This document shows positions 6,355 to 33,920 of a stretch of 33,920 nt of DNA, in pieces. The position numbers and the translations under genes are program-made. This DNA is from an uncultured Verrucomicrobia subdivision 3 bacterium (GTDB lineage: Bacteria > Verrucomicrobiota > Verrucomicrobiia > Limisphaerales > UBA11358), in contig CAJAQO010000036.1 in the NCBI GenBank assembly GCA_903944085.1, forward strand, positions 1 through 33,920, in the 5' to 3' direction. Below the pieces are notes generated by a model. That model was given only the letters and a program-made list of their open reading frames with translations, was not told the origin of the DNA and did not search any database. Numbering within the stretch: position 1 is the stretch's first letter; every line of letters starts with the position of its first letter.

Positions 6355-6356
6355 GC

Positions 6357-9511: not shown

Positions 9512-9553
9512 TTTTGCCTTTGATCCTGCTGAAGCGCGCAATTCAAGCGGTTA

Positions 9554-10669
9554 TTATTTTTTATGGCCAAAACCATAGACGGCCACTTTGTGGGGTCCAA
9601 ACTGATTCATCACGATGAGCAAATGTTCCACCTGAAAATCCGGCGCGGCGTATTTTTGGAACAGCGCCACGTCATCGTAATCCACCAGCACCTTGGCCGG
9701 CAGTTCCATGCTGGCCTGGTCAGAGTTAGCCCCGCCAAACGGCATCAGCAGGTGCCCTTCATCGTTGAACAACTGCACATTGTCGAAGGCTGCGTCCACG
9801 ACATAAATATAATTATTGTGATCCACCGCCACGCCTTTATTCCGCGAAAAATCACCAAAGTTATTGCCATGTTCGCCGAAGGTGCGGATATACTTTCCGT
9901 CCGCGTCATAAATCTGCACATGCGACGCCCCCAAATCGCTGACCACCAGCCGCCCCTGCGTGTCCAAGGCAATGTTGATCGGCTGATACAGCTTCCGTTG
10001 CAAACTGTCTGCGTCCTCGCCCCGGGGAATGTCAAACAAATTTGTCCGCGTAGCCTTGTCCAGCACATGCACTGAATGGGTTGTCACGTCGCTCAGATAA
10101 ATCCGATCGCGGGTCAAAGCCACATCCATCGGTTTGTTCTTCCCTTTCGCGCCGATCATGGCCACAAAATTTTCCTTATCGTCCAAAATCACCAGTTGCT
10201 GGCGGGCCATGTCCACCACATACAGCCAGCCATTGGTATCCACGGCCAGATTAACCGGATCCTGAATGGCTCCCGCCGCGTCAGGAGTCACCACGCTCAT
10301 CCTTTGCAGAACCAAATCCATTTTCAAGACCGCCCCCTGGCCGGTGTCGCAAACATAGATTTTGCCCCCGCCGGCATGGCCGCCATATGGCTTCACAATC
10401 GGCAGCAACCGGGGCTGTTGCCCGGTCAGAAAGGTCACGAAACTATCGTGCGTCCCCTTGCGTAAATCCCGTTCCGACGCAAAGGAGGTCAGGAATTGCA
10501 CATGCGGTTCGTCGGGCGCCGGCGGAAAGAAAACGTATTGCGGTTGCTTGTTCTTTGCCTTTTGGCTGTTCGCCGAGGTGGCGCAACCCGCCGCCAGCCA
10601 GAGCAGGCCCGCAACAGCCAGCATCGGCAGGGCTAAATTCAACAAACTTTGGGATGGGTTGTTTTTCAT
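9554..10669 (-). CDS. NHL-repeat beta-propeller lipoprotein (second copy, first gene of conduit operon)
   Basis: About 371 residues. The signal sequence ends in a good lipobox (LLWLAAGC), so the mature protein should be lipid-anchored. Propeller blades follow, for example DPVNLAVDTNGWLYVVDMA, QPINIALDTQGRLVVSDLG and RNKGVAVDHNNYIYVVDAAF. The block before the propeller (PDEPHVQFLTSFASERDL) matches the same place in the other NHL protein (PSEPRIGFVQYLRGPHDI), so the two are paralogues. It is the first gene after the terminator at 10777-10818 and precedes the 13-heme gene by about 40 bases. The ATG at 10669 begins a normal signal peptide; an in-frame upstream ATG at 10720 would add 17 residues. 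Confidence 0.88.
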   Translation of the reverse strand: MKNNPSQSLLNLALPMLAVAGLLWLAAGCATSANSQKAKNKQPQYVFFPPAPDEPHVQFLTSFASERDLRKGTHDSFVTFLTGQQPRLLPIVKPYGGHAGGGKIYVCDTGQGAVLKMDLVLQRMSVVTPDAAGAIQDPVNLAVDTNGWLYVVDMARQQLVILDDKENFVAMIGAKGKNKPMDVALTRDRIYLSDVTTHSVHVLDKATRTNLFDIPRGEDADSLQRKLYQPINIALDTQGRLVVSDLGASHVQIYDADGKYIRTFGEHGNNFGDFSRNKGVAVDHNNYIYVVDAAFDNVQLFNDEGHLLMPFGGANSDQASMELPAKVLVDYDDVALFQKYAAPDFQVEHLLIVMNQFGPHKVAVYGFGHKK

Positions 10670-10776
10670 GGCTTCAGCATCGCTGGTCTGGAAGATTGAC
10701 GCCAAACATTTTTTGCTCACTAGCGAACATAATTTGGTTAGTCACGGTCAATCACTATTTTTCCATTTCATCCCGC

Positions 10777-10818
10777 AAAAAAAACGGGGCATCTGAAGTC
10801 GTGACGTCAGATGCCCCG
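10777..10818 (-). terminator. Rho-independent terminator after the tetraheme gene
   Basis: A perfect 12-bp stem (10785-10796 with 10807-10818, arm CGGGGCATCTGA) has a 10-base loop. On the minus strand it is followed directly by eight Ts (10784-10777). It lies about 25 bases downstream of the tetraheme stop and separates the cbcL-like/hemA/tetraheme unit from the conduit operon. Confidence 0.93.
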
Positions 10819-10842
10819 GTGTGTTCAAGCTATTTGGTTTGG

Positions 10843-11568
10843 CTACTTGATGTGGCAGCTCAAGCAGAGGCTCTGCCCGTGCGGAATGGTCCGCGTGTTA
10901 TGAATGTCGTGGCAGGTGCTGCATTCCATCTGGGACTGGCTCGGGCCTTTCAACTGGGCCTGCACGGTCAACGTGCTGGTCAGGAAGGTGCCAGACTTGG
11001 GCAGCAGTTCCGTCACGCCGTAGCGGGTAGCCAAGGCGGTGGAGGCTTGGTCATAGCTGATGCCAATCGGATGCACATGGGTGAGGTCGTTGCCGTTCAC
11101 CGCCAGAATATAGCCGGCAGGCACAGTGACAGGCCCCGCGTTGGTGTTGCCCAACCAATTGGCGGTCGGCGTCGTGGTGCCATCAAGGCCCAGCTTCAAT
11201 TGCTGGTTAATGCCCACCGTGCCGTCATGGCAGGACAAACAGGCTTTGCTGGAGGTGCCGAGACTCACGGTCAGACCCAAGGCATCGAAAGTTTCGCTGC
11301 CGGCATGATCGTAAGTCTTGTAGATTTGGGATGACGGAGCGTGAATCCATAGCGGCCCTTTCGTCGGATCAGGTGACTTATGGACGTCGTGACACTCACC
11401 GCAGACGCTCGGAGAGGAGGCTTTCAGGCCCGTATTGCCGCCCGCCCACAAGTTCGTGGTGGCGCTGGTGTAAAAATCGTGGGCTGAGCCCGCGATCGCT
11501 GCCTTACTGACCGATGGCATCATGGCCACCGTGGCTCCCAAGGCGAGGAGCATTGTCATTTTTTTCAT
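10843..11568 (-). CDS. Exported tetraheme c-type cytochrome (OmcE-like layout)
   Basis: About 241 residues with a signal peptide (MLLALGATVAMMPSVSKA). Four CXXCH motifs (CGECH, CLSCH, CSTCH, CLSCH) are widely spaced, and the protein ends two residues after the last one. Features such as CHDVH, GPLWIH, CLSCHDGTVGI, HPIGISYD and CSTCHDIH match the first four hemes of the 12-heme protein. Single-domain tetraheme cytochromes of about this size with a C-terminal heme include Geobacter OmcE, which polymerises into filaments. Whether this one does is unknown. It could equally be a periplasmic shuttle. The ATG at 11568 starts a normal signal peptide; a GTG at 11583 is in frame. Confidence 0.9.
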   Translation of the reverse strand: MKKMTMLLALGATVAMMPSVSKAAIAGSAHDFYTSATTNLWAGGNTGLKASSPSVCGECHDVHKSPDPTKGPLWIHAPSSQIYKTYDHAGSETFDALGLTVSLGTSSKACLSCHDGTVGINQQLKLGLDGTTTPTANWLGNTNAGPVTVPAGYILAVNGNDLTHVHPIGISYDQASTALATRYGVTELLPKSGTFLTSTLTVQAQLKGPSQSQMECSTCHDIHNTRTIPHGQSLCLSCHIK

Positions 11569-11706
11569 AGTTTTGTCTAGCACGTGCTGTTGTTTGTTTG
11601 TTTCAACCCGTCCTCATTCGAGGCCGGGAGTTCCAGCGAAAAACCAAACACAGAGCTCTGCGCCGGAAATTCGTTGAAAGGGTGTTTGCTCATGGCAAAA
11701 TTTTAG

Positions 11707-12783
11707 TTACATCGTCGCGCCGCGCAAGGCCCAACCGGGCACGGTTTCGACTGCGGCGGCGGCGCGTTTCGCAAACGGGGAATCGAAGCGGGCCATCAAT
11801 TCCGCCGTGTGTTCGGCAATGATCTGCTGGCACACCGTCAATTCCTGCTCGCGATTTTTTGTATTTTCGCGGACGACCGCTTCCAGATCGTCGATGTCGT
11901 AAAGGAAAACATTCGGGAGTTCGGCCACCGCCGGATCAATGTCGCGCGGCACCGCAATGTCCACCAGCACCAGCGGCCGGTTCCGGCGCGCGGGCAAAAT
12001 CTTCTCCACGTCGGCGCGATGCAGAACAATGTCCGGGCTGCCGGTGGAGCTGACCAGAATATCCGCCTCAGTCATCGCCGCCGCCGAATCCTCGATGCGC
12101 ACTGCGCGCCCGCCGAATTCCGCCGCCAGTTTCTCCGCGCGTTCCACCGAGCGGTTGGCGACCAGCACGGTTTTCGCGCCGCGCTTGGCGAGATGTTTCA
12201 CGCAGGCCTCGCCCATTTTGCCCGCGCCTAAAATCATCACGGTCTTCTCACCGAGGTTCGCATCAAAAATTTTTTCGGCCAGCTCCACCGCCACGCTGCC
12301 GACGGAGGTCGCGCCGCGCCCGATGCCGGTGTTCGTGCGCACGGCTTTCACCACCGCGAACGCCGTTTGGAACAGCCGGTTCATTTTCTTGCCGACGAGG
12401 CCGGCGTCTTTCGCGGCTTGATAGGCGTTCTTGACCTGGCCGGTAATTTCCGTTTCGCCAATCACGAGCGAGTCTAGCCCGCTGGCGACCGCGAACAAAT
12501 GTTTGGCCGCTTCGGCACCTTCCTTGACGTAGAGATGCGGGGTGAAATCAAAATCGCTGCCGGTGAGCTCCTGAAACAAATGCTGGACGCGGCCATGAAT
12601 CCAATTTGAAACGCCGTAAATCTCCACCCGGTTGCAGGTGGAAAGGAGCACGACTTCTTCGAGCCCGCCGCGCAGCTTGAGGCGGCAGCCGCAGCATTGC
12701 AGCCGCGCGCGCTGGACCGCGAGTTTCTCGCGCACTTCCACCGGCGTGGTCTTGTAGCTTAATCCTGCAACAAAGATTTTCAT
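11707..12783 (-). CDS. hemA: Glutamyl-tRNA reductase
   Basis: Catalyses NADPH-dependent reduction of glutamyl-tRNA to glutamate-1-semialdehyde, the first committed step of C5 heme synthesis, in the cytoplasm. Visible are the N-terminal catalytic domain with the nucleophile Cys50 in LLSTCNRVEIYGV, the signature SGLDSLVIGETEITGQVK, and the Rossmann NADPH domain (VMILGAGKMGEACVKHLAKR). The C-terminal dimerisation helix is short: 358 residues against about 420 in Escherichia coli. It lies between a nine-heme/cytochrome b gene and a tetraheme cytochrome on the same strand, so it is probably co-transcribed with them and matches heme supply to cytochrome demand (inference). Confidence 0.96.
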   Translation of the reverse strand: MKIFVAGLSYKTTPVEVREKLAVQRARLQCCGCRLKLRGGLEEVVLLSTCNRVEIYGVSNWIHGRVQHLFQELTGSDFDFTPHLYVKEGAEAAKHLFAVASGLDSLVIGETEITGQVKNAYQAAKDAGLVGKKMNRLFQTAFAVVKAVRTNTGIGRGATSVGSVAVELAEKIFDANLGEKTVMILGAGKMGEACVKHLAKRGAKTVLVANRSVERAEKLAAEFGGRAVRIEDSAAAMTEADILVSSTGSPDIVLHRADVEKILPARRNRPLVLVDIAVPRDIDPAVAELPNVFLYDIDDLEAVVRENTKNREQELTVCQQIIAEHTAELMARFDSPFAKRAAAAVETVPGWALRGATM

Positions 12784-12911
12784 TTCGGTTCGGTTGACGT
12801 CGTTGTCTGGCCCAACCTTAAACCCGCCAGAAATCCCTGCCTACCATTTTTTGCTTTTTAATATGCAATTTTTGGCAAGGTTAACGATTCATTTTAGGCT
12901 TAACCACATTA

Positions 12912-14642
12912 TCAGATTTCCTTACCGACCTGCAAAGTGCTCGGCGGGTCCGCCCGGCGTGGCGCGGTGGCCGGTTCCAGCGGATGCTCGTGCGCCTGAA
13001 ATTCCTCGGAGATGCGCCCGTCGAGGCACGCGGTGTTCAGCGGATAAACTTCCGGATCAAAGATCACATGATAGAAATGCCAGACAATGATGGCGAGGCA
13101 CGCGAGCACCGCCTCGTAATAATGAATGGTCGTCGCCACCGTCACCACCCAGCGCGGCAGATGTTGCGTCACGTCAATCTTGAACCAGATGGCCAGACCC
13201 GTCGCGCCCATGATGATGGTGCCCCAGACGACCGCCCAGTATTCCATTTTTTCCGCGTAGCCGAAGCGGCCGATTTTCGGCTTGTCCTTGGTGAATCCGG
13301 CCAGATAACGCACCGCCTGCAAAACGTCCAGCGCGTCTTTTTTGACCGGAAATAAATCCGCCACCAGTTTCCGCCCATCGCGGGTGGCTAGCAGATAAAC
13401 CAAATGATAGAGGCCGATCAGCAGCATCACGATGCCGGCGATACGGTGCGCCCAGCGGCGGAATGGCTCGCTGGAACCCAAAACTTTCGCCAGCCACGAA
13501 TCGGAAAATTTCAACGCAAAGCCCGTCACCGCCAGCACAATGAAACTGGTCGCCAAAATAAAATGCTGCCAGCGCTGCGAGGCCGTCATCCGCACCACCG
13601 GCCGCTCGGTCATACGCAGCCGCGCGGCGGTTTTCTTGATGAACAAAATGCCGTTGTGCGCCAACATGCCGCCGATGGTGCCGACAATCAGCAGCAGATA
13701 AATCTGCCGCACCCAGTGGTTCAACCGGCCCCCGAAATCCGCCCCGCCCGCCTGCCCGTCCGGCTCGACGTGGATTTTGCCTTGAGAAAATTCCGTGTTT
13801 GCGCCCGGATGACATTTGCCGCATGTCTCAACCAGATGAACTTTATTGATCATCGAATTGGTGTCCGACGAGGCCAGAATTTTGTGGTAGCCGTGGCAGC
13901 TTGCACAGTTCGCCGCGACCGTGGAACCGTATTGCGCCGCGAGGCCGTGGTAGCTGTCAAAAAAAGTTTTCACCCGGTCGGCCGGCAGATTGTATTTCGT
14001 GTTCAACCGCTCGGACGCGTGGCAGCGGCTGCACACCTCCTCGGAAATGTTCATGGCCGAACTGCCCTTGAGCGAGCGAATCTTGTGCTCGTCGTGACAG
14101 CCCGTGCAGGTTGGCGCGTCATGCGAACCGGCGAGGACCGCCTTGCCATGGACGCTTTGCGCCCACTCGCGCGCCTCCTTGTCGTGACACGCGCCGCAGG
14201 TTTCCGCCTGGCGCGAAAAATAAATCGGCGAGGTCGGCGAATTGTCCGAAATAATGTCGTGCGAATCGTGGCAATCGCGGCACGTCGCCGCGTCGTTATG
14301 CCCGGCCTTCAGCGCCAGGCCGTGAACGCTGGCTTTAAAACTGTCCGTCTGCCGCGCGTGGCACACCCCGCAGTTCACCGGCGCCACCGGCTTGTTGTCG
14401 TCGGGATGTTTGGTGGTGAGATCCGCGTGGCAACTGATGCAATCATTGGTTTTGTGCGCAGACAATTTCATTTTGGCCGCGTCCACAAAAAGCGAAATCG
14501 CCTTGCCGGCGGAATTGGTCTTGAACAGCGTGTTGTCGCCGTGGCAATCGAGACAGTCGCTGTTCTTCAAACCGGCCCAGGCCGGCAGCGCCGTGAACAG
14601 GAACAGCGTGCCGAGGCAAAGAAAAAAAGAACCACGTTTCAT
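12912..14642 (-). CDS. Nine-heme cytochrome c fused to membrane cytochrome b (CbcL-type quinol oxidoreductase)
   Basis: 576 residues. After a signal peptide, a periplasmic domain carries nine CXXCH motifs between residues 30 and 278 (CLDCH, CISCH, CGVCH, CRDCH, CGACH, CTGCH, CSRCH, CASCH, CGKCH). The C-terminal half has five predicted membrane helices (about 312-332, 358-378, 398-418, 467-487, 507-527). Histidines at 360, 399, 413, 507, 522 and 525 are well placed to bind b hemes, as in HydB/cytochrome b561-like subunits. This architecture is that of Geobacter CbcL, an inner-membrane menaquinol oxidase for low-potential extracellular acceptors. Formate or hydrogenase-linked cytochrome b proteins are the alternative, but no partner subunits are nearby. 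It heads the cbcL-like/hemA/tetraheme unit. Confidence 0.9.
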   Translation of the reverse strand: MKRGSFFLCLGTLFLFTALPAWAGLKNSDCLDCHGDNTLFKTNSAGKAISLFVDAAKMKLSAHKTNDCISCHADLTTKHPDDNKPVAPVNCGVCHARQTDSFKASVHGLALKAGHNDAATCRDCHDSHDIISDNSPTSPIYFSRQAETCGACHDKEAREWAQSVHGKAVLAGSHDAPTCTGCHDEHKIRSLKGSSAMNISEEVCSRCHASERLNTKYNLPADRVKTFFDSYHGLAAQYGSTVAANCASCHGYHKILASSDTNSMINKVHLVETCGKCHPGANTEFSQGKIHVEPDGQAGGADFGGRLNHWVRQIYLLLIVGTIGGMLAHNGILFIKKTAARLRMTERPVVRMTASQRWQHFILATSFIVLAVTGFALKFSDSWLAKVLGSSEPFRRWAHRIAGIVMLLIGLYHLVYLLATRDGRKLVADLFPVKKDALDVLQAVRYLAGFTKDKPKIGRFGYAEKMEYWAVVWGTIIMGATGLAIWFKIDVTQHLPRWVVTVATTIHYYEAVLACLAIIVWHFYHVIFDPEVYPLNTACLDGRISEEFQAHEHPLEPATAPRRADPPSTLQVGKEI

Positions 14643-19125: not shown

Positions 19126-19279
19126 CCTAACTAAATCTTGACATTAACATATCAAATATTGCAAAGTAGCGATGGAAATTCAAACAAACGGTCGAGCCCG
19201 CCTTGGACGGACTAGGCCAATCGAAAATCAGAAGAGAAGTCATGGTGGCCGCGCCGCCACGAAAACCCAAAATCAAAAA

Positions 19280-22200
19280 ATGAAAACCAAACAAACTCTC
19301 GTTCAAATCTGCCGGCTTGTTGCCTGGGTCTGCCTGATTTCATTTCGCAGTTCGGCGGAAACCGGCTCGCTGCCGAATTTTGACCGCCGCTTGGAAACAA
19401 CCAAGACAAGCCAGCCGGCGGTCGCCAACGCGGCCCGGGAAAAGGCCGCGAGCCTCATTCGCGCTCGCGTCCAGGAAGTCCGCATTGACGGTGATGAGCT
19501 GCTTGGCTCGCCCAAATTCATCGCCTCCACGCGCGCGTTCCTGACGGGCGCGAATGGCAGCGGTGGCGCGGTGTCCGCCGCGACGGCGGCGGCGTTTCCG
19601 ACGGACGAGCCGCAGCGCGGCGTGAAAACTTTTTTAACGGAGCACTCGGCGCTGTTCGGTTTCGGCCCGGAAGCGCTGGCGGCGGCCAAGGTCAAGCGCG
19701 ATTACGTCAGCGCGTCCGGCGGCTTCAGCACCACGGTCTGGCAGCAGCATGTGGACGACATCGCGGTTTTTGAAGCAGTTTTCAAAGCGCATCTGACGCA
19801 GCAGGGCGAACTCATCAACGTCAGCAGCCAGTTTGTGCCCGACTTGCCAACCGCTTCCGGCAGAATTGCCGCCCGCACCACGCTCGAAGCGATGCCGCCG
19901 ATTTCGGCGCAGCAAGCCATTATTCTCGCCGCGCAAAACATTGGAGACATGCTCGCCACCAATCAGCTTGCGGCGCAGGATTTGCCGCAGGGCAACGAGC
20001 GGGTCCAGCATTTTCGCGGCTCGCCGGTGTTGAACAACACCAGCGCGCGGCTGGCTTGGCTGCCGGTGGATGCGGGCACGCTGCGGTTGTGCTGGAATGT
20101 CAACGTCGAAAGCCGGGCGCGCGGCGAGTTGTATCAAATTCTCGTGGACGCACAGACGGGCCAAATTTGGTTGCGCGAATGTCTCACCGACGAGCTTTCA
20201 GACGCCACATTCAACGTGTGGACCAACGAAAGTCCCACGCCCATGATGCCGACGCTGGGCGCGATGACTTCGTTTCAACCGCCGCAGGTGCCGCGCGCGC
20301 TGGTGACGTTTGCCGCGCTGGACACCAATGCCTCGCCGGCCGGCTGGATCAATGACGGCGACAATACAACTGTCGGCAACAACGTGGATGCGCATTTGGA
20401 CTGGAACAACGATAACATCGCCGATCCCGGATCGCACCCAGCCGGTTCGCCCAACCGGGTTTTCAGTTATGCGGCTGACCTGACGCAGGAACCCTCCAAC
20501 AACTGGGCGCCAGCAGTGGTTTCCCTGTTTTACTGGAACAATTTTGCACACGACCGATACTACGAATACGGTTTCACGGAAGCTGCGGGCAATTTTCAGT
20601 CGAATAACTTCGGCCGCGGCGGCACGGGCAACGATCCCGTGCAGGCGGACGGCCAGGACAGTTACATGCTGCCGGCCACCAATGGCACTTCGCGAGACAA
20701 TGCCAATTTTTCCACCCCGACGGACGGCAGTTCCCCTCGGATGCAAATGTATATTTTCAACTTCCCCAGCCCGAACCGCGACGATGACTTGGACGCCACG
20801 ATGATGCTGCATGAATATACGCACGGCGTCAGCTCGCGGCTGGTGGGTGGCGGGGTCGGCATCAGCGCGCTGCAAACGTCGGAAATGGGTGAAGGCTGGA
20901 GCGATTTTTGCGCGCTGTCGTTGTTGAGCAATCCGACGAACGATCCTGACGCGAACTATGGCATGTTTGCTTATGTGGGCTACAATTTTTACGGCATGAC
21001 CAGCAATTATTATTTCGGTCTGCGCCGTTATCCTTATTCGGTTAGCACCAATGTCAATCCACTAACTTACAAGGATATTGACACCAACCAGTTGAGCGCC
21101 CACACCGGCGTGCCCATCAGTCCGTGGCTGGGTTACAACCCCGCAAACGCTAACGAAGTCCACAACGCGGGCGAAGTCTGGTGTATTGCGCTTTGGGAGG
21201 CGCGCTCGCGGATGTGCCACAAATACGGCAACGCGGCGGGCAATCAGATGATGCTGCAACTGGTGATTGACGGCATGAAACTCTCGCCGGCCAATCCGCT
21301 TTTTCTCCAGGCGCGCGATGCGATTCTTCAGGCCGACCGCGCGGACAACGGCGGCGCGAATCAGGATTTGTTGTGGGCCGCCTTTGCCAAGCGCGGCATG
21401 GGTTACTCCGCCTCGTCACCCGGCAACAACACCACCACCGGCGTCGGCGAAGCGTTTAATACGCCATTGGACACGAACGCGCCAATCATCGCGGTATTAT
21501 CGCCGGCAAATAACGCCACCCTGAATTTGTTGACGAACATCAGCGGCACCGCGTATGACGGCGGCAGCGGTTTGCAGGGCAATCAAATTCACTTCACGCT
21601 CAACAATAATGGAAATTTTTGGAGCGGCAGCTATTGGACCAATACCGTTTCAACCGACCCGTCCATCCTGCTCACCGCGAATGTTGCCAATGGTGCGTGG
21701 ACTTTCAACGGCGTGCCGACCGGCGGCAATCAAGCTCAAGGAACCTATTACATCAGCGCCTACGCCCGCGACAACGCGGGCAATGTTTCGCAGGCGCAAT
21801 CCGGCGTCACCTCGACCAGTTTCGTCCTCAGCACCACGCCACCGAACGTGGCGATCACGTTTCCGGTGAACGGCAGCACGATCACCAATCAGCTTTCCGG
21901 CAACTGGTTTCAAGGCACCGCCAGCGGGAATCTGGGCATTTCGGTAAGCGTGTCACTCTTCATCCGCCGCAACAGCGACAATCTTTACTGGACCGGCTCC
22001 GGCTGGGGCAATGTTACGAACGGCTTCATCAGTAACACCTACAATTCCGGCACGCACGCCTGGCAGAGCACCGGCCTGCTGCCGGTGCCCGGCAGTTCGC
22101 TCGGCAACGGCACCTATCACTTTATCGCCATCGCGGCGGATGCAGCGGGCGTCCAGCAACAGGTGGATTCCGTCGTGTCAGTGGATTTTCATCCCGTCTA

Positions 22201-25200
22201 TACGTTCACGGCGGGCAGTTACTTCGATGCCGATCCGAACAATGACAACATGAACTGGGACAATCCCGCGAATTGGGACCAGGCCAGCGTGCCCACATCG
22301 GATGCCCGCGTGGTTATCAATGGCTACACGCCGGATAACACCAGCCTCGGCAGTCTGCAACTGTATCGGCTGGACTTGTCCGGTGGCACGCTGACCACGG
22401 CTGGGATGATCATCACCAACCTCAACATCTCCGGCGGCGCGCTTTCCGGCGGAGCCATCAGCTTGCCGGTGGGCGGCGTCTTCAATTGGTCAGGCGGGAT
22501 CATCGCCGGTTCCTACAACGTGCCCGCCGGCGCGATGGTCAACCTCACCGGTTCGGCGGACAAAACCATGTCCGTCGTTACCCTCGTCAACAATGGCACG
22601 GTGCTTTGGAACGGTGGCAACTTGGTGGGTTCCTATGGGAGTGTGGTCACCAACAACGCCAGCTTCGTCATCCAAAGCAGCGGCAATTTCGATAATAATG
22701 GCAGCGGTGCCGGCTACTATGGCTTGCCAGAGTTCGTCAATAACGGCTGGTTTCAAAAAACCAATTCCAACGGGGAAACCATTATTGCGCCTGACAATGG
22801 CGGGTGGACTTTCATCCAAAATGGAACCATTGACATTGAAAACGGTGCCTTAAGTTCGCAGAGCCAGTTTCAGGTGAACGGGGGGGCCGTCTTTGCGGGG
22901 CCGGGCGAAACGCGCGTGGATGCCGGGAGCATTGTCCTCAGTGGCACCAACACCATCCAACCGGGTGCAACCGTGGAATTGGCGGGCGGCACTTGGGGCG
23001 GCAACAATCTCTTTATCGGCCCCGGAACGTTTGTGTGGAGCGGCGGCACCATTGACGGGATCAACGCCGTCGGTGCCGGTGCAAATCTTGCCATCCTCGG
23101 CGATGGTCCGAAAACTTTGAACGTCGGCACGCTGACCAACGCCGGCTATGGGGTTTGGACCGGTGCCGGGCCGGTGGTTTGCACCTATGGCAGCACGTTC
23201 GAGAACGACGGCACTTTCATGGTTCAGAACGATTCGTCCTTTGCCAACAATGGCGGTGGCGCTGGATATTATGGGCTGCCGCAGTTCATCAACACGGGCA
23301 GCTTTGTCAAGACCAACAGCACCGGCACCAACACCACTCTGTTCGCGCCGGACAACGGCGGCGTGGCCTTCAATAACTATGGCACCGTCACGGTGCAAAG
23401 CGGCGTGCTGGCCTTGGGCGGCGGCGGCAGTGATGCCAACGCAACTTTCACGATCGCTGCGGGATCGCGACTCGATTTGACCGGCGGCGTTCACAATTTC
23501 GGCCCCGGCCTCATGAGTTTGAATGGAACCGGCCTGACCCGGCTGATTACGACCGGCTCGCTAACGTTGAACGGCAACGTGATGTTCAATAACGGCGGCA
23601 CGTTCGAAATTGACACCAATGGAAACGTGACGGGAAATGGAACCTTTGGCGGCACGGGAATTTTCAACTGGACCGGCGGCACCATTTCAGCGGTCATCGG
23701 GCTGCAAACCAACATCACCCTCAATGTGAGCGGCGACGGGGCTAAGACGCTGAACGTCGGCACGGTGACCAATGCCGGCCACGGTTTTTGGACTGGCGCC
23801 GGGTCAGTTAATTGCACCTATGGCAGCACGTTCGAGAACGATGGCACTTTCACGGTCCAGAACAACTCAGCCTTTTCCAACAACGGCGGTGGGGCCGGCT
23901 ATTATGGACTGCCAGTGTTCATCAACAACGGCAACCTGGTCAAAATCAATAGCAGTGGAACCACGCTCTTTGACAGTGTCAATGGCGGCGTGGCCTTCAA
24001 TAACAACGGGATCGTCAACGTGCAAAGCGGCAATGTGGCCCTGGCCGGCGGCGGCATTGGCAGCAACGGTTCGCTGGCCGAAGTTGCCGGTTCAGAAGTG
24101 GATTTTCTGGCGGGAAACTTTTCTCTGGCTGGGAATCCAATCTTTTCTGGCGCGGGCAGCACGCGGGTCAACGGCGGAACAGTCGCTTTCGCAAATTCCC
24201 AAAACACGCTGACGGCGGGTGCCACGTTCGAAATTGACACCAATGGAAACGTGACGGGAAATGGAACCTTTGGCGGCACGGGAACTTTCAACTGGACCGG
24301 CGGCACCATTTCAGCGGTCATTGCCCTGCAAACGAACATCGCGCTGAACATCACCGGCAGCGACCCGAAGATTTTCAACGTCGGCTCGCTGGCCAACGCC
24401 GGTCATGGCCTGTGGACCGGAGCCGGTCTGGTGATTTGCACCTATGGCAGCACGTTTGAGAACGATGGCACATTTATCATCCAGACCGACTCGTCCTTTT
24501 CCAATAACGGCGGCGGGGCCGGCTACTATGGGCTGCCGGCGTTTGTCAACAACGGCACGCTTCGCAAAAACATCACGACGGGCACCACGGTTATCGCCCC
24601 GGACAATGGCGGCGTAATCTTTGACCAGAATGGCACGCTGGATGTCGAAACCGGCATCTTGAGTTTGCAGAGTCAGTTTAATGTCAACGGCGGTGCCGTC
24701 TTTACCGGGCCGGGCAAAACACGCGTGGACGCGGGAACCGCCGTGGTGAACGGCACCAACACCATCCAAGCCGGCGCGACGGTGGAACTGGCGGCCGGCA
24801 GTTGGAGCGGCCTCAATCTTTTCACCGGCTCAGGCACCTTTGTCTGGAGTGGCGGAATCATGGCCGGAATCAACACCGTGGGCGCGGGTGCCAATCTTTC
24901 CATCCTCGGCAACGGAACAAAAACCTTGAATGTGGGCACGCTGGTCAGTGCCGGCCAGGGGTTGTGGGCCGGAACCGGGCCGGTTAGTTGCACCTACGGG
25001 AGCATTTTCGAGAACGATGGCACTTTCACTGTTCAAAACGATTCGGCATTCAGCAACAATGGCGGCGGCAGCGGCTACTACGATCTCCCCGCCTTCGTCA
25101 ACCATGGCACGTTTCGCAAGAACACCACGACCGGCACGACAACTTACCCCTTAGACAATGGCGGTGTGGCGTTTAACAATACTGGCACGGTGGATTTGCA

Positions 25201-25726
25201 ATCCGGCAGCCTGGCCATCAATGGAAATTACGCCTTGGCTGGTTCCCCGCAGCTCAAGCTGGTGCTCGGTGGCGTCAATCCCGGAACCCAGTTCAGTCAG
25301 GAAACCTTTGCGGGTGCCGCGACGCTTGGCGGAATGTTGAGCGTCACTTTGACCAACGGATTCACGCCCACCAACGGCCAGTCTTTTACCTTGGCCACTT
25401 ACAATTCCAGCGCCGGCCAGTTTAGTGCCACGCAATTTCCACCGCTGCCGGTGATTTCAAAATGGCAACTGACTTACAACCCCGGTTCGCTGCTGTTGCA
25501 GGTGGTGCCTTCGGCGGCATTTCAAAGCGCCTCGCTGACCAACGGGAATTTTCAATTCGTCTTCTCCGGCCAGACCGGTTCAAGTTGCCTCATCCAAGTT
25601 TCGACCAACTTACTAAACTGGGTGCCGCTGTTCACCAACGCGCCGTTCAACGGCACCTTGAACTACGTTGATCCGCAAACGCCGCAGGTTCCCGTGCGCT
25701 TTTATCGCGCGACCATTCTTCCGTAA
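19280..25726 (+). CDS. Giant secreted M36 (fungalysin-type) metalloprotease with repetitive beta-rich region
   Basis: 2148 residues from the ATG at 19280, which begins a good signal peptide; an upstream in-frame ATG (19172) would bury it. A propeptide-like region comes first. The M36 catalytic domain follows, with zinc motif HEYTHG (511-516) and the third ligand in EGWSDF (Glu538), typical of fungalysins. Ig-like modules (from about residue 733: AVLSPANNATLNLL, PPNVAITFPVNGSTI) come next, then a long Gly/Asn/Thr-rich region (about 1000-2000). This contains five copies of a motif built on YGSTFENDGTF and NNGGGAGYYGLP. The C-terminus (SGQTGSSCLIQVSTNLLNW to RFYRATILP) resembles end modules common in verrucomicrobial secreted proteins (recalled). 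Probably degrades extracellular protein while the repeats act as stalk or adhesin. Confidence 0.9.
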   Translation: MKTKQTLVQICRLVAWVCLISFRSSAETGSLPNFDRRLETTKTSQPAVANAAREKAASLIRARVQEVRIDGDELLGSPKFIASTRAFLTGANGSGGAVSAATAAAFPTDEPQRGVKTFLTEHSALFGFGPEALAAAKVKRDYVSASGGFSTTVWQQHVDDIAVFEAVFKAHLTQQGELINVSSQFVPDLPTASGRIAARTTLEAMPPISAQQAIILAAQNIGDMLATNQLAAQDLPQGNERVQHFRGSPVLNNTSARLAWLPVDAGTLRLCWNVNVESRARGELYQILVDAQTGQIWLRECLTDELSDATFNVWTNESPTPMMPTLGAMTSFQPPQVPRALVTFAALDTNASPAGWINDGDNTTVGNNVDAHLDWNNDNIADPGSHPAGSPNRVFSYAADLTQEPSNNWAPAVVSLFYWNNFAHDRYYEYGFTEAAGNFQSNNFGRGGTGNDPVQADGQDSYMLPATNGTSRDNANFSTPTDGSSPRMQMYIFNFPSPNRDDDLDATMMLHEYTHGVSSRLVGGGVGISALQTSEMGEGWSDFCALSLLSNPTNDPDANYGMFAYVGYNFYGMTSNYYFGLRRYPYSVSTNVNPLTYKDIDTNQLSAHTGVPISPWLGYNPANANEVHNAGEVWCIALWEARSRMCHKYGNAAGNQMMLQLVIDGMKLSPANPLFLQARDAILQADRADNGGANQDLLWAAFAKRGMGYSASSPGNNTTTGVGEAFNTPLDTNAPIIAVLSPANNATLNLLTNISGTAYDGGSGLQGNQIHFTLNNNGNFWSGSYWTNTVSTDPSILLTANVANGAWTFNGVPTGGNQAQGTYYISAYARDNAGNVSQAQSGVTSTSFVLSTTPPNVAITFPVNGSTITNQLSGNWFQGTASGNLGISVSVSLFIRRNSDNLYWTGSGWGNVTNGFISNTYNSGTHAWQSTGLLPVPGSSLGNGTYHFIAIAADAAGVQQQVDSVVSVDFHPVYTFTAGSYFDADPNNDNMNWDNPANWDQASVPTSDARVVINGYTPDNTSLGSLQLYRLDLSGGTLTTAGMIITNLNISGGALSGGAISLPVGGVFNWSGGIIAGSYNVPAGAMVNLTGSADKTMSVVTLVNNGTVLWNGGNLVGSYGSVVTNNASFVIQSSGNFDNNGSGAGYYGLPEFVNNGWFQKTNSNGETIIAPDNGGWTFIQNGTIDIENGALSSQSQFQVNGGAVFAGPGETRVDAGSIVLSGTNTIQPGATVELAGGTWGGNNLFIGPGTFVWSGGTIDGINAVGAGANLAILGDGPKTLNVGTLTNAGYGVWTGAGPVVCTYGSTFENDGTFMVQNDSSFANNGGGAGYYGLPQFINTGSFVKTNSTGTNTTLFAPDNGGVAFNNYGTVTVQSGVLALGGGGSDANATFTIAAGSRLDLTGGVHNFGPGLMSLNGTGLTRLITTGSLTLNGNVMFNNGGTFEIDTNGNVTGNGTFGGTGIFNWTGGTISAVIGLQTNITLNVSGDGAKTLNVGTVTNAGHGFWTGAGSVNCTYGSTFENDGTFTVQNNSAFSNNGGGAGYYGLPVFINNGNLVKINSSGTTLFDSVNGGVAFNNNGIVNVQSGNVALAGGGIGSNGSLAEVAGSEVDFLAGNFSLAGNPIFSGAGSTRVNGGTVAFANSQNTLTAGATFEIDTNGNVTGNGTFGGTGTFNWTGGTISAVIALQTNIALNITGSDPKIFNVGSLANAGHGLWTGAGLVICTYGSTFENDGTFIIQTDSSFSNNGGGAGYYGLPAFVNNGTLRKNITTGTTVIAPDNGGVIFDQNGTLDVETGILSLQSQFNVNGGAVFTGPGKTRVDAGTAVVNGTNTIQAGATVELAAGSWSGLNLFTGSGTFVWSGGIMAGINTVGAGANLSILGNGTKTLNVGTLVSAGQGLWAGTGPVSCTYGSIFENDGTFTVQNDSAFSNNGGGSGYYDLPAFVNHGTFRKNTTTGTTTYPLDNGGVAFNNTGTVDLQSGSLAINGNYALAGSPQLKLVLGGVNPGTQFSQETFAGAATLGGMLSVTLTNGFTPTNGQSFTLATYNSSAGQFSATQFPPLPVISKWQLTYNPGSLLLQVVPSAAFQSASLTNGNFQFVFSGQTGSSCLIQVSTNLLNWVPLFTNAPFNGTLNYVDPQTPQVPVRFYRATILP
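22560..25180 (+). repeat. Intragenic repeats in the giant protease, A-B-B-A order
   Basis: Five copies of a YYGLP-centred block have anchors at 22712, 23263, 23897, 24521 and 25072, so the steps are 551, 634, 624 and 551 bases. The first and last intervals share one filler (VNGGAVF, TRVDAG, GATVELA, GTFVWSGG). The two middle ones share another (GTFEIDTNGNVTGNGTFGGT), and 23600-23697 and 24224-24321 are almost identical in DNA. Confidence 0.85.
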
Positions 25727-30592: not shown

Positions 30593-30682
30593 ACCAAAAC
30601 CGTGAAACCGAAAACCTTCCTGCTCATCGCTGGTGCTTTAGCTGCGGAGCAGCGCCCACTAGTAGCCCATAGCGCCAGCTAT
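30574..30682 (+). repeat. Composite repeat, copy A
   Basis: Left module CTCTGCCTTAAA, then GTGAAACCGAAAACCTTCCT, followed by GGTGCTTTAGCTGCGGAGCA and a truncated CCCATAGCGCCAGCTAT palindrome. Related copies are at 32668, 33427 and 33728. It supplies the stop codon of the HEPN gene and ends beside the methyltransferase stop. Confidence 0.85.
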
Positions 30683-30687
30683 TCAAT

Positions 30688-31677
30688 TCAGCTTCGCCGC
30701 GTTTTTGGGGAAAGTTTGGTTCGATAAGGCGCTTTCTTTTCGGCAAGAACCATTGTCAACTGTTGTTTGTCCTCGCGTTCAATCGAGCCATAGTCACCGT
30801 TCATCTGAAGTTCTTCACCGGTAAAATCGGGATAGAGAGCCGCGAGTCGAGGAATGGAACGTTCGGCCAGCTTGAAATACTCCTCGTCCAGTTCAACGCC
30901 GACGGAATCGTAACCAACCGCTTCAGCGGCGGCGACGGTTGAGCCAGAACCCATGAACGGATCAAGCACCGTGCCTTCGCCAAGTGGCAGGAGCGAACGA
31001 ACGATGACGCGCATAAAATATTGCGGCTTTAGACACGGGTGATTTGAAATGGCTTCTTCGCGGCCGGGCGTGCGTCCGCTCGGAATTGAGTCAGGCAATG
31101 GTTTGTCAACCGAGAGCCGTCGCAACCCGCCGGTTTTCCATTTGCGTAGATTTTCGGCCACCGTCTTTTCTTCAATCGGTTTTCGGAAAAGCATCCAAGG
31201 TTCGTAAGCGCCTTTTGGTGTCACGCAAACTTCTGGGAACTCCCGCTCCGCAAGTTTTGGTCTATCCCCGCCGCGAAAGCTGAAATAAAGGCGCATAATC
31301 GCCGCCCGCACTTCGTAGCCAGCATTGGTCATCGCGCCCTGGACAAGGTGTTGCAAAATGGGATGTCCAGCCACGCACACATGAGCACCCGGCACGAGCG
31401 CCGGCCACAGTGTCTTGCCCCATTCATGGAAGAAACGCCGAAGCTCCAGCTTTTGTGCGTCAGTCAAAACCGTAAAGCGAGGCAACGGGTCACGTTGGCT
31501 GCCGCCGATGGTCGGAGGCAGCCGCCACACTCCACCGCGTCCGGCGCGAAGCTTGGCAACCTCTTTCCCGGTAAATTCCAAAACGCCATAGGGCGGATCA
31601 GTGCACACGGCATGGAGCGAATGCGGCTTGCACCCGCGCAACCAGTCAAAACAATCTGCATGGTGGATTTGATACAT
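30688..31677 (-). CDS. Beta-class DNA methyltransferase (N4-cytosine or N6-adenine) of a type II-like system
   Basis: 329 residues. Motif IV DPPY (27-30) precedes the recognition region, and motif I FMGSGST (241-247) lies in the C-terminal part with VGVELDEEYF after it. This order defines the beta class of amino-methyltransferases. The enzyme would methylate A-N6 or C-N4 in the same site cut by the divergent nuclease. The start ATG has AGGTAAG just upstream. The closing segment (after about 290) is charged and may be accessory. The recognition sequence cannot be read from the protein. Confidence 0.92.
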   Translation of the reverse strand: MYQIHHADCFDWLRGCKPHSLHAVCTDPPYGVLEFTGKEVAKLRAGRGGVWRLPPTIGGSQRDPLPRFTVLTDAQKLELRRFFHEWGKTLWPALVPGAHVCVAGHPILQHLVQGAMTNAGYEVRAAIMRLYFSFRGGDRPKLAEREFPEVCVTPKGAYEPWMLFRKPIEEKTVAENLRKWKTGGLRRLSVDKPLPDSIPSGRTPGREEAISNHPCLKPQYFMRVIVRSLLPLGEGTVLDPFMGSGSTVAAAEAVGYDSVGVELDEEYFKLAERSIPRLAALYPDFTGEELQMNGDYGSIEREDKQQLTMVLAEKKAPYRTKLSPKTRRS

Positions 31678-31752
31678 TTCTTACCTGAAGACCAATTTCA
31701 ACTATAGGCGAAAGACAATCAAGCAAAAAACATGTATCAACTATGGGCGAAA
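31669..31752. promoter_or_regulatory. Divergent control region of the restriction-modification pair
   Basis: Two 16-bp direct repeats differ at one base: TCAACTATAGGCGAAA (31698-31713) and TCAACTATGGGCGAAA (31737-31752). The second covers the start codon of the nuclease gene. In addition, TTGATACAT (31669-31677) and ATGTATCAA (31732-31740) form a 9-bp inverted repeat covering the methyltransferase start. They are good candidates for operators bound by the HTH domain of the nuclease. Confidence 0.65.
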
Positions 31753-32648
31753 TGGACACCAAAGCAACTATCGGCCGTTTTCTTCGCAAACTCCGCGAAC
31801 AGAAACAGCTCACTCAAGAGCAACTGGCCAATAAAACCGGCATCACCTACCAGCATCTGTCCGGCATGGAAAACGGTCGAGAGAATTTCACGATTGATAT
31901 TCTTGAATCTCTTGCCCACGCACTCGTCTATCCGTTGCCTCAATTGATTGCCGGTGCGTTTGCTCCTGAACCAACCGCATCTGGCATCACTGTAAATCAC
32001 GATTATTTTCGCCCACAAGTTCCGCTGCCGCCAGGCATGAAGATTGCCCATCTGGAAGCAGCGATGAACGCCACACAAAGCATTGTGGCGCGCATCAATG
32101 CCAACTTGCTCATCAGCGGGGCGAAGCCGCTCCCGGAATACATTCAGGGCAATAATTTCAGCGGACTGGTGTCGAATGTCTTTTGTGATGCGTTGAATGA
32201 CCATTCACCCTACAAACATAATTCCCACCAAGCCTATCCCGACCTCGTCAATGCGACTGTGGAGAAAGGTGGCAAACTGGCTGGCTTGGAAGTGAAATCA
32301 ACCGTTCAAATTGGCAAGGGTGGCGAAAGCCACAATGGGCATTCCGGCTGGCATCTCATCGCGTGTTTTCAAATTGAACCGCAAACGGGAAACGTCCGAT
32401 TCATTCACCTTATGTTTGCCGTGCTTAACGGACATGGTCATTCTGAACCCGATTGGACTTACGTTGGCAGCAAAGTCAATGCGGACACAGGGAGTCGCCG
32501 CACTGAAACCTACAACACTACATTGGCTGGCACGACCAAACTTCGTGATGGTTCTATTTTTCTTGATTCAACAGCCGTTAATTTCAAACGCTGGCGTCAA
32601 AAGCGCAAAGATGTCGTTCCACCTTATTCAATATTTTCACAGAGGTAA
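31743..32648 (+). CDS. Restriction endonuclease with N-terminal XRE HTH and PD-ExK nuclease domain
   Basis: 301 residues. An XRE/Cro-type helix-turn-helix (about 10-66: TQEQLANKTGITYQHLSGME) is joined to a domain with YPDLVNATVEK (Pro166-Asp167) and LEVK (Glu183, Lys185), the PD-(D/E)xK catalytic signature, followed by GWHLIACFQ. The divergent partner is a DNA methyltransferase, so this is most likely the restriction half, with a built-in controller domain instead of a separate C protein. An Mrr-like or repair nuclease is less likely given the partner. ATG 31743 lies in a putative operator; ATG 31752 is an alternative start. Codon use is less GC-rich than the flanking housekeeping genes. Confidence 0.82.
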   Translation: MGEMDTKATIGRFLRKLREQKQLTQEQLANKTGITYQHLSGMENGRENFTIDILESLAHALVYPLPQLIAGAFAPEPTASGITVNHDYFRPQVPLPPGMKIAHLEAAMNATQSIVARINANLLISGAKPLPEYIQGNNFSGLVSNVFCDALNDHSPYKHNSHQAYPDLVNATVEKGGKLAGLEVKSTVQIGKGGESHNGHSGWHLIACFQIEPQTGNVRFIHLMFAVLNGHGHSEPDWTYVGSKVNADTGSRRTETYNTTLAGTTKLRDGSIFLDSTAVNFKRWRQKRKDVVPPYSIFSQR

Positions 32649-32667
32649 GGGACGGTTCTGTTTACTC

Positions 32668-32740
32668 GCGTCTCCCCGTCTCTGCGTTAAAATAAAGCCG
32701 GGAAACCGAAAACCTTCCTGCTCCTCGCCGGCGATGAGGG
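32668..32740 (+). repeat. Composite repeat, copy B
   Basis: GTCTCCCCGTCTCTGCGTTA, then GGAAACCGAAAACCTTCCTG and CTCCTCGCCGG match the left module of the other copies. After that the sequence diverges, with an inverted-repeat element (32756-32847) in place of the TTTAGCTGCGG tail. Together with copy A it brackets the restriction-modification genes in direct orientation. Confidence 0.8.
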
Positions 32741-32755
32741 CAACAATTCCCCTGC

Positions 32756-32847
32756 AGGAGACGAGGTGACGAGTCTCTAACTCTTATCGGACGGCCTTTT
32801 CATGCAGTGGCCGGAAAACCAGTTTGAGACTCCTCACGTCGTCTCCT
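32756..32847. repeat. MITE-like element with 22-bp terminal inverted repeats
   Basis: 32756-32777 (starts AGGAGACGAGG) and 32826-32847 (ends GTCTCCT) are inverted repeats matching at 20 of 22 positions, separated by 48 bases. There is no coding capacity. The size and structure fit a small non-autonomous palindromic element. Confidence 0.7.
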
Positions 32848-32897
32848 ACAAATAATCCATGGATTTCACCGCGCGATCCGCTGAGCCGGCACTTGCT

Positions 32898-33337
32898 TCA
32901 TGTGTCGCCCGCCCTGCTTCATGTGCCGGCAGCCATATTTCATGTGTCGGAAGCCCTGTTTCATGTAAAATCACCGGTTTCTCATGTTTTATCCCTGCCA
33001 ATCTCGTGGTTGCCCGGCAAAAACATGGTTTAGGGAGGGTTTCGTCAGGTTAAGAATGGCGTTCGTCAGGTTAAGAACGCAGTTCCTCACCTGAGACATG
33101 GGGTTTTTCAGGTGAAGCGTGGTCGGCCTCACCTGATGGAGCCAATTCTTCACCTGAGGAAGTCCATGGCTCAGGTGAGTCGAGGCCGGCAACAGCCGTG
33201 GATCGCGTCGCTCACCTGAAGCAACCGCTGGTTCACCTGAGGAATCGCCCGGCTCAAGTGAGGAAACCTGGCTATCAGGTGAGGAACGCCGTCCGTAACA
33301 TGACGAAGCTGGTTTTACACCTGAGGAAACCGCTCCA
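32898..33337. repeat. Diverged tandem array, about 21 units of 21 bp
   Basis: An octamer core recurs at a 21-base step: 32898, 32919, 32940, 32961, 32982, then weak copies near 33003 and 33024, then 33045, 33066, 33087, 33108, 33129, 33150, 33171, a weak copy at 33192, and 33212, 33233, 33254, 33275, 33296, 33317. The first five cores read TCATGT; later ones read TCACCTGA or its reverse complement TCAGGTGA, often followed by GGAA. One base is missing between 33171 and 33212; otherwise the phase is kept throughout. Confidence 0.88.
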
Positions 33338-33426
33338 AATTGTGCTGTTTCGGCAGTTCCACTGTCCACCGGACTTGCTTTGGGACTCGAAGCGGAGTCA
33401 AAACCTGACGGGCACAAGAATTTACT

Positions 33427-33550
33427 CCGCGTCTTGGCGGCTTTGCGTTAAAATCCGGCCGTTGAAACCGAAAACCTTCATACTCATCGCCGGTGCTTTA
33501 GCTGCGGAGCAGCGCCCGGCAGTAGCCCATAGCGCCAGCTATGGGTTTAA
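33427..33550 (+). repeat. Composite repeat, copy C (full form)
   Basis: Left module GCGGCTTTGCGTTAAAAT, TTGAAACCGAAAACCTTC; then two perfect hairpins, GCTGCGGAGCAGC (33501-33513) and CCCATAGCGCCAGCTATGGG (33526-33545). The plus strand could encode KPKTFILIAGALA, like a signal-peptide start, but no gene follows. Confidence 0.85.
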
Positions 33551-33569
33551 TCGCCCACGCACCCACCAA

Positions 33570-33699
33570 GCTCCGGCAGGAGCGAGAGAAAATCACCATT
33601 CAACAACCCATTTCGTCCGCCCCGTCCGGGGCTTGAATCGTTTTGCCAATACGTTCCCACGGTTTCACCGTGGGCTACTACCTCGCGCCACCCCGTGGC
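33570..33699. repeat. Cluster of REP-type hairpins
   Basis: Four perfect palindromes with short loops follow one another: GCTCCGGCAGGAGC (33570-33583), GCCCCGTCCGGGGC (33619-33632), CCCACGGTTTCACCGTGGG (33656-33674) and GCCACCCCGTGGC (33687-33699). These resemble REP sequences mobilised by RAYT/IS200-like transposases encoded elsewhere (inference). Confidence 0.75.
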
Positions 33700-33727: not shown

Positions 33728-33830
33728 TTCTCCGCGTCTCCGCATCTTTGCGTTAAAATAAATCCGTGAAACCAAAAACCTTCCTGCTCCTCGCCGGTGC
33801 TTTAGCTACAGAGCAGCGCCCGGCAGTGCG
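33728..33830 (+). repeat. Composite repeat, copy D
   Basis: CATCTTTGCGTTAAAATAAA, GTGAAACCAAAAACCTTCCT, CGCCGGTGCTTTAGCTACAG and GAGCAGCGCCCGGCAGT closely follow copy C. It then switches to a different palindrome (33831 onwards). Confidence 0.85.
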
Positions 33831-33913
33831 CGCGGCGTCTCGCCGCGTGAATCCAGCGGACGGTTGGTCCTGGCAGCGAGACGCTGCCGGAACCCGCAGC
33901 CGTGGACGGCTGC
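33831..33913. repeat. Second group of perfect hairpins at the window end
   Basis: CGCGGCGTCTCGCCGCG (33831-33847), GGCAGCGAGACGCTGCC (33872-33888) and GCAGCCGTGGACGGCTGC (33896-33913) are perfect palindromes with 2-3 base loops, of REP type. No gene is visible here. Confidence 0.75.
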
Positions 33914-33920
33914 GCCACAA

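Follow-up and report, generated by a model that had tools for sequence, protein, structure and literature searches.

A 440-base intergenic array of short palindromes spaced two DNA turns apart in an uncultured Verrucomicrobia bacterium, and other arrays of the same pitch

The stretch of DNA analysed here, called the window below, comprises 33,920 nucleotides and is the whole of contig C36 (CAJAQO010000036.1) of an uncultured Verrucomicrobia subdivision 3 bacterium, whose genome (GCA_903944085.1) spans 5.79 Mb in 335 contigs and is 95.9% complete. Multihaem cytochromes, NHL-repeat proteins, a cytochrome b561-type protein and a glutamyl-tRNA reductase are encoded at 3533-14642 (a second glutamyl-tRNA reductase is located at another locus of this genome, L282), and a 2184-residue protein with an M36 fungalysin peptidase domain at 19172-25726. 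Towards the right end lies a gene pair of restriction-modification (R-M) type (Table 1), in which the helix-turn-helix (HTH) protein matches the PADLOC Control_protein model (E 3e-8) and C.BclI in the PDB (E 1.1e-5). The subject of this study begins 250 bp behind this pair: a 440-base intergenic stretch holding about 20 copies of a short palindrome at a spacing of exactly two DNA turns (21 bp). Both R-M genes and the array are enclosed by the 80-bp direct repeats, a pattern as from an insertion with a long target duplication or from a mosaic of dispersed repeats. At 32753-32850 there is a 30-bp inverted repeat whose arms are 87% complementary, and the region of its right arm recurs at several places in the genome. 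The last 110 bases (33811-33920) are identical to the start of contig C161; a repeat thus closes the contig, and what lies to the right of the array is visible only in part.

Table 1. Features around the palindrome array in the window
Feature	Position	Strand	Remark
Direct repeat, left copy	30603..30682	+	80 bp, 93% identity
Type II DNA methyltransferase (N6_N4_Mtase)	30688..31677	-	
Xre/Cro-type HTH protein resembling R-M controller proteins	31743..32648	+	Possible restriction-enzyme domain at the C-terminus; the REase_II match is weak (E = 0.0018)
Array, first block	32897..32988	+	5 TCATGT units, pitch 21, centre TG, single orientation
Two degenerate lattice positions (33003, 33024)	33003..33044	.	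Phase maintained; 32982 to 33045 = 63 = 3 x 21
Array, second block	33045..33178	.	7 units TCAGGTTA/TCAGGTGA/TCACCTGA, both orientations; palindrome test 33041-33187 p < 0.001
One unit lost plus 1-base slip	33179..33211	.	Step of 41, not 42
Array, third block	33212..33324	.	6 units including TCAAGTGA, TAACATGA, ACACCTGA; palindrome test 33208-33333 p = 0.039
Direct repeat, right copy	33463..33542	+	

The initial annotation of this locus had described about 21 cores phased at 21 bp with one 1-base slip, and this description held. The span 32897-33324 forms a lattice of 21 positions spaced 21 bp apart, in which a single step of 41 replaces 42. Eighteen of them carry a TCA-NN-TGA or TCATGT core and three (33003, 33024 and 33191) are degenerate, the full make-up being five TCATGT, nine exact TCA-NN-TGA, four cores with one change and the three degenerate positions. 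The TCATGT copies start at 32898, 32919, 32940, 32961 and 32982. Seven units follow at 33045-33171, with TCAGGTTA present twice, and after the 41-base step six more at 33212-33317; in these second and third blocks TCANNTGA is exact in 9 of the 13 units and carries one change in 4. Aligned on TCA with TCACCTGA, TCATGTGT is the same type of site with centre TG, and the centres seen after this alignment are TG, GG, CC, AG and CA. An additional weak unit, TCCGCTGA, lies at 32877, one step upstream.

Self-identity at lag 21, the check proposed with that annotation, is 0.508 over 32881-33360, against about 0.25 at most other lags. Echoes are seen at lags 42 (0.441), 63 (0.410) and 84 (0.384), and the remaining lags from 5 to 61 give 0.18-0.30. 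Lags 62 and 83 are also raised (0.311 and 0.348), as a one-base slip would produce. Period 21 exceeds all neighbouring periods, and the periodicity expected of heptanucleotide STRR repeats is absent from the array, with lags 7 and 14 at background (0.22 and 0.227).

The palindrome extends beyond its core to about TTCyTCAnnTGArGAA. In a dyad test by column permutation, the score is 0.57 at 33041-33187, where the null averages 0.40 (p < 0.001), and 0.49 at 33208-33333, where it averages 0.41 (p = 0.039); a weaker test, of the dyad symmetry of the conservation profile, was mostly non-significant (p 0.095 and 0.51 for the window). Conservation is higher in the core than in the filler, as the annotation had claimed: across 13 units the variance of column conservation is 0.053, above all 5000 null draws (mean 0.017, largest 0.045). 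Either orientation does occur: the 13 units of blocks two and three are split 6 to 7 between them, and all five units of block one share a single orientation. Self-complementary centres are rare, 1 in 18 units where 6.4 are expected and 0 in 13 in blocks two and three where 5.6 are expected; the sole instance is the GC of the weak unit at 32877, which is counted among the 18. In this array the orientation of the centre is independent of that of the filler (p = 0.32), so the signature of inversion seen in a Chitinophagaceae genome described below is not found in the window.

The two arms of the palindrome do not covary significantly inside units; the half-sites vary independently. Over 18 chosen arrays, 791 cells are paired between arms, compared with 776.4 (sd 10.2) after shuffling, and 7.6% of the shuffles reach as high. 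One array of the 18, in Pedobacter, stands at p = 0.024. In the 168 units of the Chitinophagaceae genome, arm positions 1-5 are at or below the shuffled values and position 6 is slightly higher (67 vs 57.2). Hairpins are disfavoured by this result, which fits better with duplex DNA in which each half-site is read on its own. Rfam at the gathering threshold gave no match over the window or over eight other loci of the same genome.

The array is very probably non-coding. No frame of the six is open across all of it, the stops over 32897-33324 being 7, 7, 2, 2, 7 and 14 per frame. One minus frame of 142 codons (33417-32989) is open over the second and third blocks, that is, the last 13 units; the slip alters the unit register inside this frame, and its peptide has no uniform repeat. 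Column conservation carries no signal of codon phase in the window (p 0.75 and 0.90), in a test that detects only two of seven coding controls, and with this same low power the test is significant in none of 29 array segments. The suggestion that the array is decayed heptad-repeat coding DNA is therefore unlikely, given the stops, the shift of register and the lack of a codon-phase signal.

Between the two genes of the neighbouring R-M pair, the array motif is present only as a site with three mismatches (31677-31692), which is at chance level, and the stretch holds other direct repeats, judged by eye. On this ground we draw no link between the array and the R-M system, and the proposal that it is the operator of the controller protein is unsupported, the divergent promoter having no convincing copy of the motif.

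The genome was then scanned at all periods from 16 to 33, and the claim of a preferred pitch rests on these multi-period scans, not on the pattern scan with a preset spacing of 21 that is described further below. In 493,214 unmasked bases, read in windows of seven units, 14 regions were found at period 21 (the window counted), against 0-3 at the other periods. A further 232,419 bases, read in slightly shorter windows of six units, gave four regions at period 21 and 0-3 at other periods, so that about 726 kb of the genome yield 14 + 4 period-21 regions. The stretches scanned were low-numbered contigs together with C38, C102, C121, C156, C226 and C241, which held earlier matches and were not picked for period; contigs L279, L283 and L287 were wholly masked and hence excluded. 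About half of the regions resemble non-coding arrays with other palindromes, including CCTTTGAAGG (L289), CTACG..CGTAG (L292), TTCG-GA/TC-CGAA (L401) and TTCC-N4-GGAA (L396); the remainder lie mostly inside long frames or have stop-free frames (for example, L294, L298 and L389). The window array is thus one of a set in its own genome with the same pitch and different palindromes, which goes beyond the initial annotation.

Nine of these arrays were compared in the dyad test. Five reach p < 0.04 (the window, L289, L292, L396 and L401, with scores of 0.49-0.59) and four are non-significant (L282, L288, L293 and L310). Twelve comparison regions, made up of four from two relatives and eight presumed coding or unclear ones from the same genome, include three at p <= 0.04, two of these at p <= 0.02 (L343 and L309), with scores no higher than 0.42; dyad p-values near 0.02 are therefore weak on their own. 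Stops are present in all frames of the window array, L282 and L293. In L288, L289, L292, L310, L396 and L401 an open frame spans the greater part or the whole of the array, and judged by stops these may be either coding or non-coding. Around six other arrays of this genome, the 20 neighbouring proteins scanned are either of housekeeping type or unknown.

A search for the same core elsewhere, also proposed with the annotation, had a mixed outcome. TCASSTGA pairs at pitch 21 are found in this genome only at the window array; of 293 genomes in the order three have them, this one included, and the remaining two show one pair apiece. Other palindromes at the same pitch are present in the genome and a Chitinophagaceae genome carries TCANNTGA arrays. 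The TCANNTGA array is single in its own genome, and constraint on it rests on its internal pattern and on the Chitinophagaceae family. Among relatives, 246,875 bases of a congener contain three period-21 regions and 333,201 bases of a genome from another family contain one, each region having at least one stop-free frame. L310 lies beside der, and none of 29 congener loci has an array there, with at least 600 bp beyond der covered in 28 of the 29 and 492 bp in the last.

One palindrome of the genome does recur. With at most two mismatches allowed, TTCC-N4-GGAA at pitch 21 gives 31 matches per strand. Three loci account for 28 of these (L439:1438-1668, L441:1480-1731 and L444:1480-1710, on contigs C32, C196 and C237), and the reversed-pattern control gives none. 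These arrays hold 11, 12 and about 11 units with unrelated centres, and their dyad tests give p < 0.001, 0.002 and < 0.002. The presence of one palindrome at three loci with unrelated centres is the clearest sign of a trans-acting factor. In one frame all three translate into heptads of the form xPxG, of whose third codon positions two are conserved and another varies freely, and both strands yield the same peptide pattern. TTCG-NN-CGAA at pitch 21 showed no such recurrence in the genome (5 matches per strand vs 6 in the control).

Public genomes were scanned with a tripled TCANNTGA pattern that required a pitch of 21, and the taxa named here are those among the matches listed, a biased and incomplete set. 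Many of these matches are near-identical tandem repeats, and arrays like that of the window, with diverged filler and both orientations, were found among them in the Chitinophagaceae genomes Jr-11may16-263 (G293) and Jr-28aug17-252, in Aminicenantes and in Treponema. When the chosen arrays are taken out, the selected public loci (765,659 bases) still contain 29 period-21 regions vs 0-11 at any other period, several of the 29 containing long open frames. In 400 kb of G293, a genome chosen through the spacing-21 pattern scan, there are 25 period-21 regions and 0-5 at each other period from 16 to 33. Of its regions, 12 of 22 have a dyad test of p <= 0.02 (two being copies of one element), and in 16 of the 17 checked for frames (of 26; three element copies and six others were omitted) no longest non-overlapping frame of at least 100 codons covers over half the length. 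Self-complementary centres are rare here as well: 5/167 in G293 (55.5 expected), 1/35 in Aminicenantes (12.1), 1/15 in Jr-28aug17-252 (4.3) and 0/13 in Treponema (5.0). An array in the isolate Pedobacter planticolens (L061:4470-4790), in which TCATATGA and CAGTTGA units alternate at pitch 21 with two centres, breaks this rule, with the self-complementary TA in 7 of 10 exact cores. A Chitinophagaceae gene adjoins the array at L093; its orthologue in G293 has no array beside it.

In G293 part of the arrays lies inside a transposon-like element, 579-726 bp when full, with terminal inverted repeats TAATTCTACTTTGACAGATTA and an internal TCANNTGA array (loci L219-L248). There are at least about 40 copies, full or partial, a lower bound from scoring 40 of 100 candidates. 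No transposase frame was evident by eye at L423 and L426, the unpaired, array-free element ends among the five element-end loci inspected (L416, L417, L423, L425 and L426). Changes between copies were counted in 7 disjoint pairs taken from 38 ungapped pairs (19 full-length elements, 30 loci), with the lattice anchored on the exact cores of one copy. The core TCA/TGA changed at 5 of 396 positions (1.3%), compared with 424 of 3442 (12.3%) in the element flanks (p = 2.5e-15). The arms changed at 53/396, the filler at 84/455 and the centre at 32/132, the last being faster than the flanks (p = 0.00025). This shows that a related TCANNTGA array family is strongly constrained on exactly the half-sites. 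In G293 the orientation of the centre follows that of the filler, an association that none of 2000 permutations equalled. The G293 arrays share with the window array the TCA-NN-TGA core, the pitch of 21, both orientations and the avoidance of self-complementary centres; they differ in lying within an element with terminal inverted repeats, none of which were found around the window array in 32640-33600.

Several known systems resemble the window array in part. Plasmid iterons are tandem sites of about two turns to which a protein binds cooperatively, and they are direct repeats adjoining a rep gene. The window cores, unlike these, stand in both orientations (6 and 7 of 13), and no Rep family was found with Pfam among the 20 window proteins scanned, on a contig that ends about 600 bp past the array; the iteron-like origin remnant put forward in the annotation is on these grounds not supported. 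MetJ boxes, omega heptads and ParR/ParG sites are short dyads or half-sites repeated in phase and bound side by side, at pitches of 7, 8 or 11 bp or in longer units, whereas several motifs of the present genome share one 21-bp pitch. REP/BIME elements are intergenic, palindromic and present in both orientations. According to PMC3733652, REPs are 20-40 bp palindromes, many with a GTAG or CGTC tag; the window array has a core of 8-16 bp, no such tag, an exact helical pitch and no significant arm covariation, and it lacks the compensatory arm changes expected of REP/BIME, with no significant excess of arm pairing within units. TIGR arrays, according to PMC12045711, adjoin a Tas gene with a Nop domain, are built from edge and loop repeats (or stem-loops) and yield 36-nt RNAs on processing. 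They share with the window array tandem short repeats and short variable fillers of fixed length. TIGR-Tas is not matched in two respects: one palindrome recurs every 21 bases without a strict alternation of edge and loop, and the best Nop-domain match in the genome has 11 bits (E 0.57), below the cut-off of 25.4 that 4 of 14 control genomes exceed. A CRISPR needs near-identical repeats of at least 20 bp with unique spacers, and here the core is 8 bp in a unit of 21 bp. A coding heptad repeat fails on the 2-14 stops in each frame. Iteron, CRISPR, TIGR-Tas, REP/BIME, heptanucleotide repeat and coding heptad thus each miss at least one tested defining feature.

One alternative is a neutral minisatellite: slippage would have expanded a 21-bp unit, two turns being mechanically favoured when replication slips, and the array would then have decayed without function. 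Near-perfect tandem arrays do exist at this pitch (L276 at 0.98 and L266 at 0.95), L396 starts with six identical units, and arrays appear and vanish between related genomes. Decay should affect all columns alike, however, and column conservation is far more uneven than expected; diverged arrays of mixed orientation also avoid self-complementary centres, and half-sites in the G293 element copies change about nine times less than the flanks, which disfavours this origin for the G293 family. We regard it as unlikely for the window array. The array could also consist of recombination sites, in which dyad half-sites flank a non-palindromic 2-bp centre like the crossover sites of serine recombinases and inversion gives both orientations. 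The scarcity of self-complementary centres in five groups (window, G293, Aminicenantes, Jr-28aug17-252 and Treponema), the two orientations and the link between centre and filler in G293 are in line with this idea. It is nevertheless quite improbable: that link is missing from the window, none of the 20 window proteins scanned matches a recombinase family (several match nothing at all), the Pedobacter centres are self-complementary, and classical resolvase and invertase sites are longer than 21 bp.

A decoy function, in which many operator copies titrate a regulator, for instance of a phage or of the adjacent R-M genes, would fit motifs that as a rule differ between loci, an array beside der that congeners lack at the same place, and the position of the window array next to an R-M pair inside the direct-repeat bracket. 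The chance-level site between the R-M genes and the housekeeping or unknown neighbours of six other arrays make it very unlikely. If each unit folded into a small stem-loop, whether in RNA or in DNA made single-stranded, this would account for palindromes whose centre does not pair and for the slight, non-significant excess of arm pairing (with the one Pedobacter array at p = 0.024), but clear covariation of the arms is missing both in G293 and over all arrays, Rfam is silent on nine loci, and RNA or cruciform hairpins are highly improbable. We give as little credence to a seven-residue peptide repeat, intact or decayed. Twenty-one bases are seven codons, the 142-codon minus frame spans 13 units, L294, L298 and L389 are in long or stop-free frames, open frames cover or reach into six further arrays (L288, L289, L292, L310, L396 and L401) and the TTCC-N4-GGAA arrays read as xPxG heptads. 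Against this, no frame is fully open over the window array and the slip shifts the register within the open one, the codon-phase signal is significant in none of the 29 segments (at low power), period 21 exceeds other multiples of three, and the TTCC-N4-GGAA arrays keep two third codon positions and yield the same peptide pattern from either strand.

On balance, the window array is probably, though by no means surely, non-coding and made up of about 20 dyad sites resembling operators of dimeric proteins, set two turns apart and kept by selection. The half-site would be TCA/TGA, extended to TTCyTCA/TGArGAA, on either side of a 2-bp centre that is almost never self-complementary. At a 21-bp pitch every site faces the same side of the helix; this, with the independence of the half-sites, leads us to propose that a putative dimeric DNA-binding protein occupies them side by side; such dimers could build a cooperative nucleoprotein patch. 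Binding by protein, the dimeric state, cooperation between neighbours and selection on this particular array are what we infer from these patterns. A short half-site with a 2-bp gap may suit proteins reading compact palindromes, such as ribbon-helix-helix proteins, better than a classical HTH dimer. In the initial annotation, sites for a symmetric protein on one helix face, with a nucleoid or partition protein named as an option, stood beside an iteron remnant and decayed coding DNA; the iteron remnant is not supported and decayed coding is unlikely, and the first is the reading that survives, as putative binding sites, through the significant palindrome, the independent half-sites and the half-site constraint in G293. 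Several observations count against an array of dimers. A different palindrome at most loci would call for several proteins, the dyad is non-significant in four of nine arrays of the genome, and self-complementary centres prevail in the Pedobacter array and in several near-identical tandem arrays. To these we add the open minus frame, the lack of arrays at the 29 congener der loci, the TCANNTGA array being single in its genome, the two comparison regions at p <= 0.02 and the R-M intergenic region without a convincing site.

That the window array belongs to a class within its own genome, with equal pitch, other palindromes and one palindrome at three loci, is observed. It is possible, and we put it forward tentatively, that this class extends to unrelated phyla as an undescribed kind of chromosomal element, with dozens of intergenic arrays per genome, locus-specific palindromes, a mostly non-self-complementary centre and an exact two-turn pitch, which would be read by dimeric proteins with a common assembly geometry but different sequence and would organise or mark the chromosome. 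No description of such arrays was found in the titles and abstract openings searched, a set that leaves most subscription journals outside and makes for weak evidence of novelty. If the proposal is true, some of what lies between the genes of these bacteria is more than filler. The fixed two-turn geometry is present with many motifs in the window genome and in Chitinophagaceae, arrays of the TCANNTGA kind are also found in Aminicenantes and Treponema, and together these would point to a common assembly principle, with the arrays serving directly as bait for proteins. Scanning for period 21 is a cheap way of finding arrays in any genome, and the half-site constraint in the transposon-like copies renders the functional claim testable now.

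Arrays of more uniform kind were also seen. The near-identical tandem arrays at L052, L095, L107, L115 and L142 have centres that are mostly TA, AT or CG and likewise depart from the rule on self-complementary centres. At the start of its contig, L396 opens with six identical 21-bp units (L396:1-126) and is possibly a young array. In the isolate Texcoconibacillus texcoconensis, three contigs bear TCAGGTGA-type arrays at pitch 21 with a single orientation throughout and 25, 14 and 7 cores (L049:3617-4273, L120:1373-1779 and L148:4821-4954, respectively).
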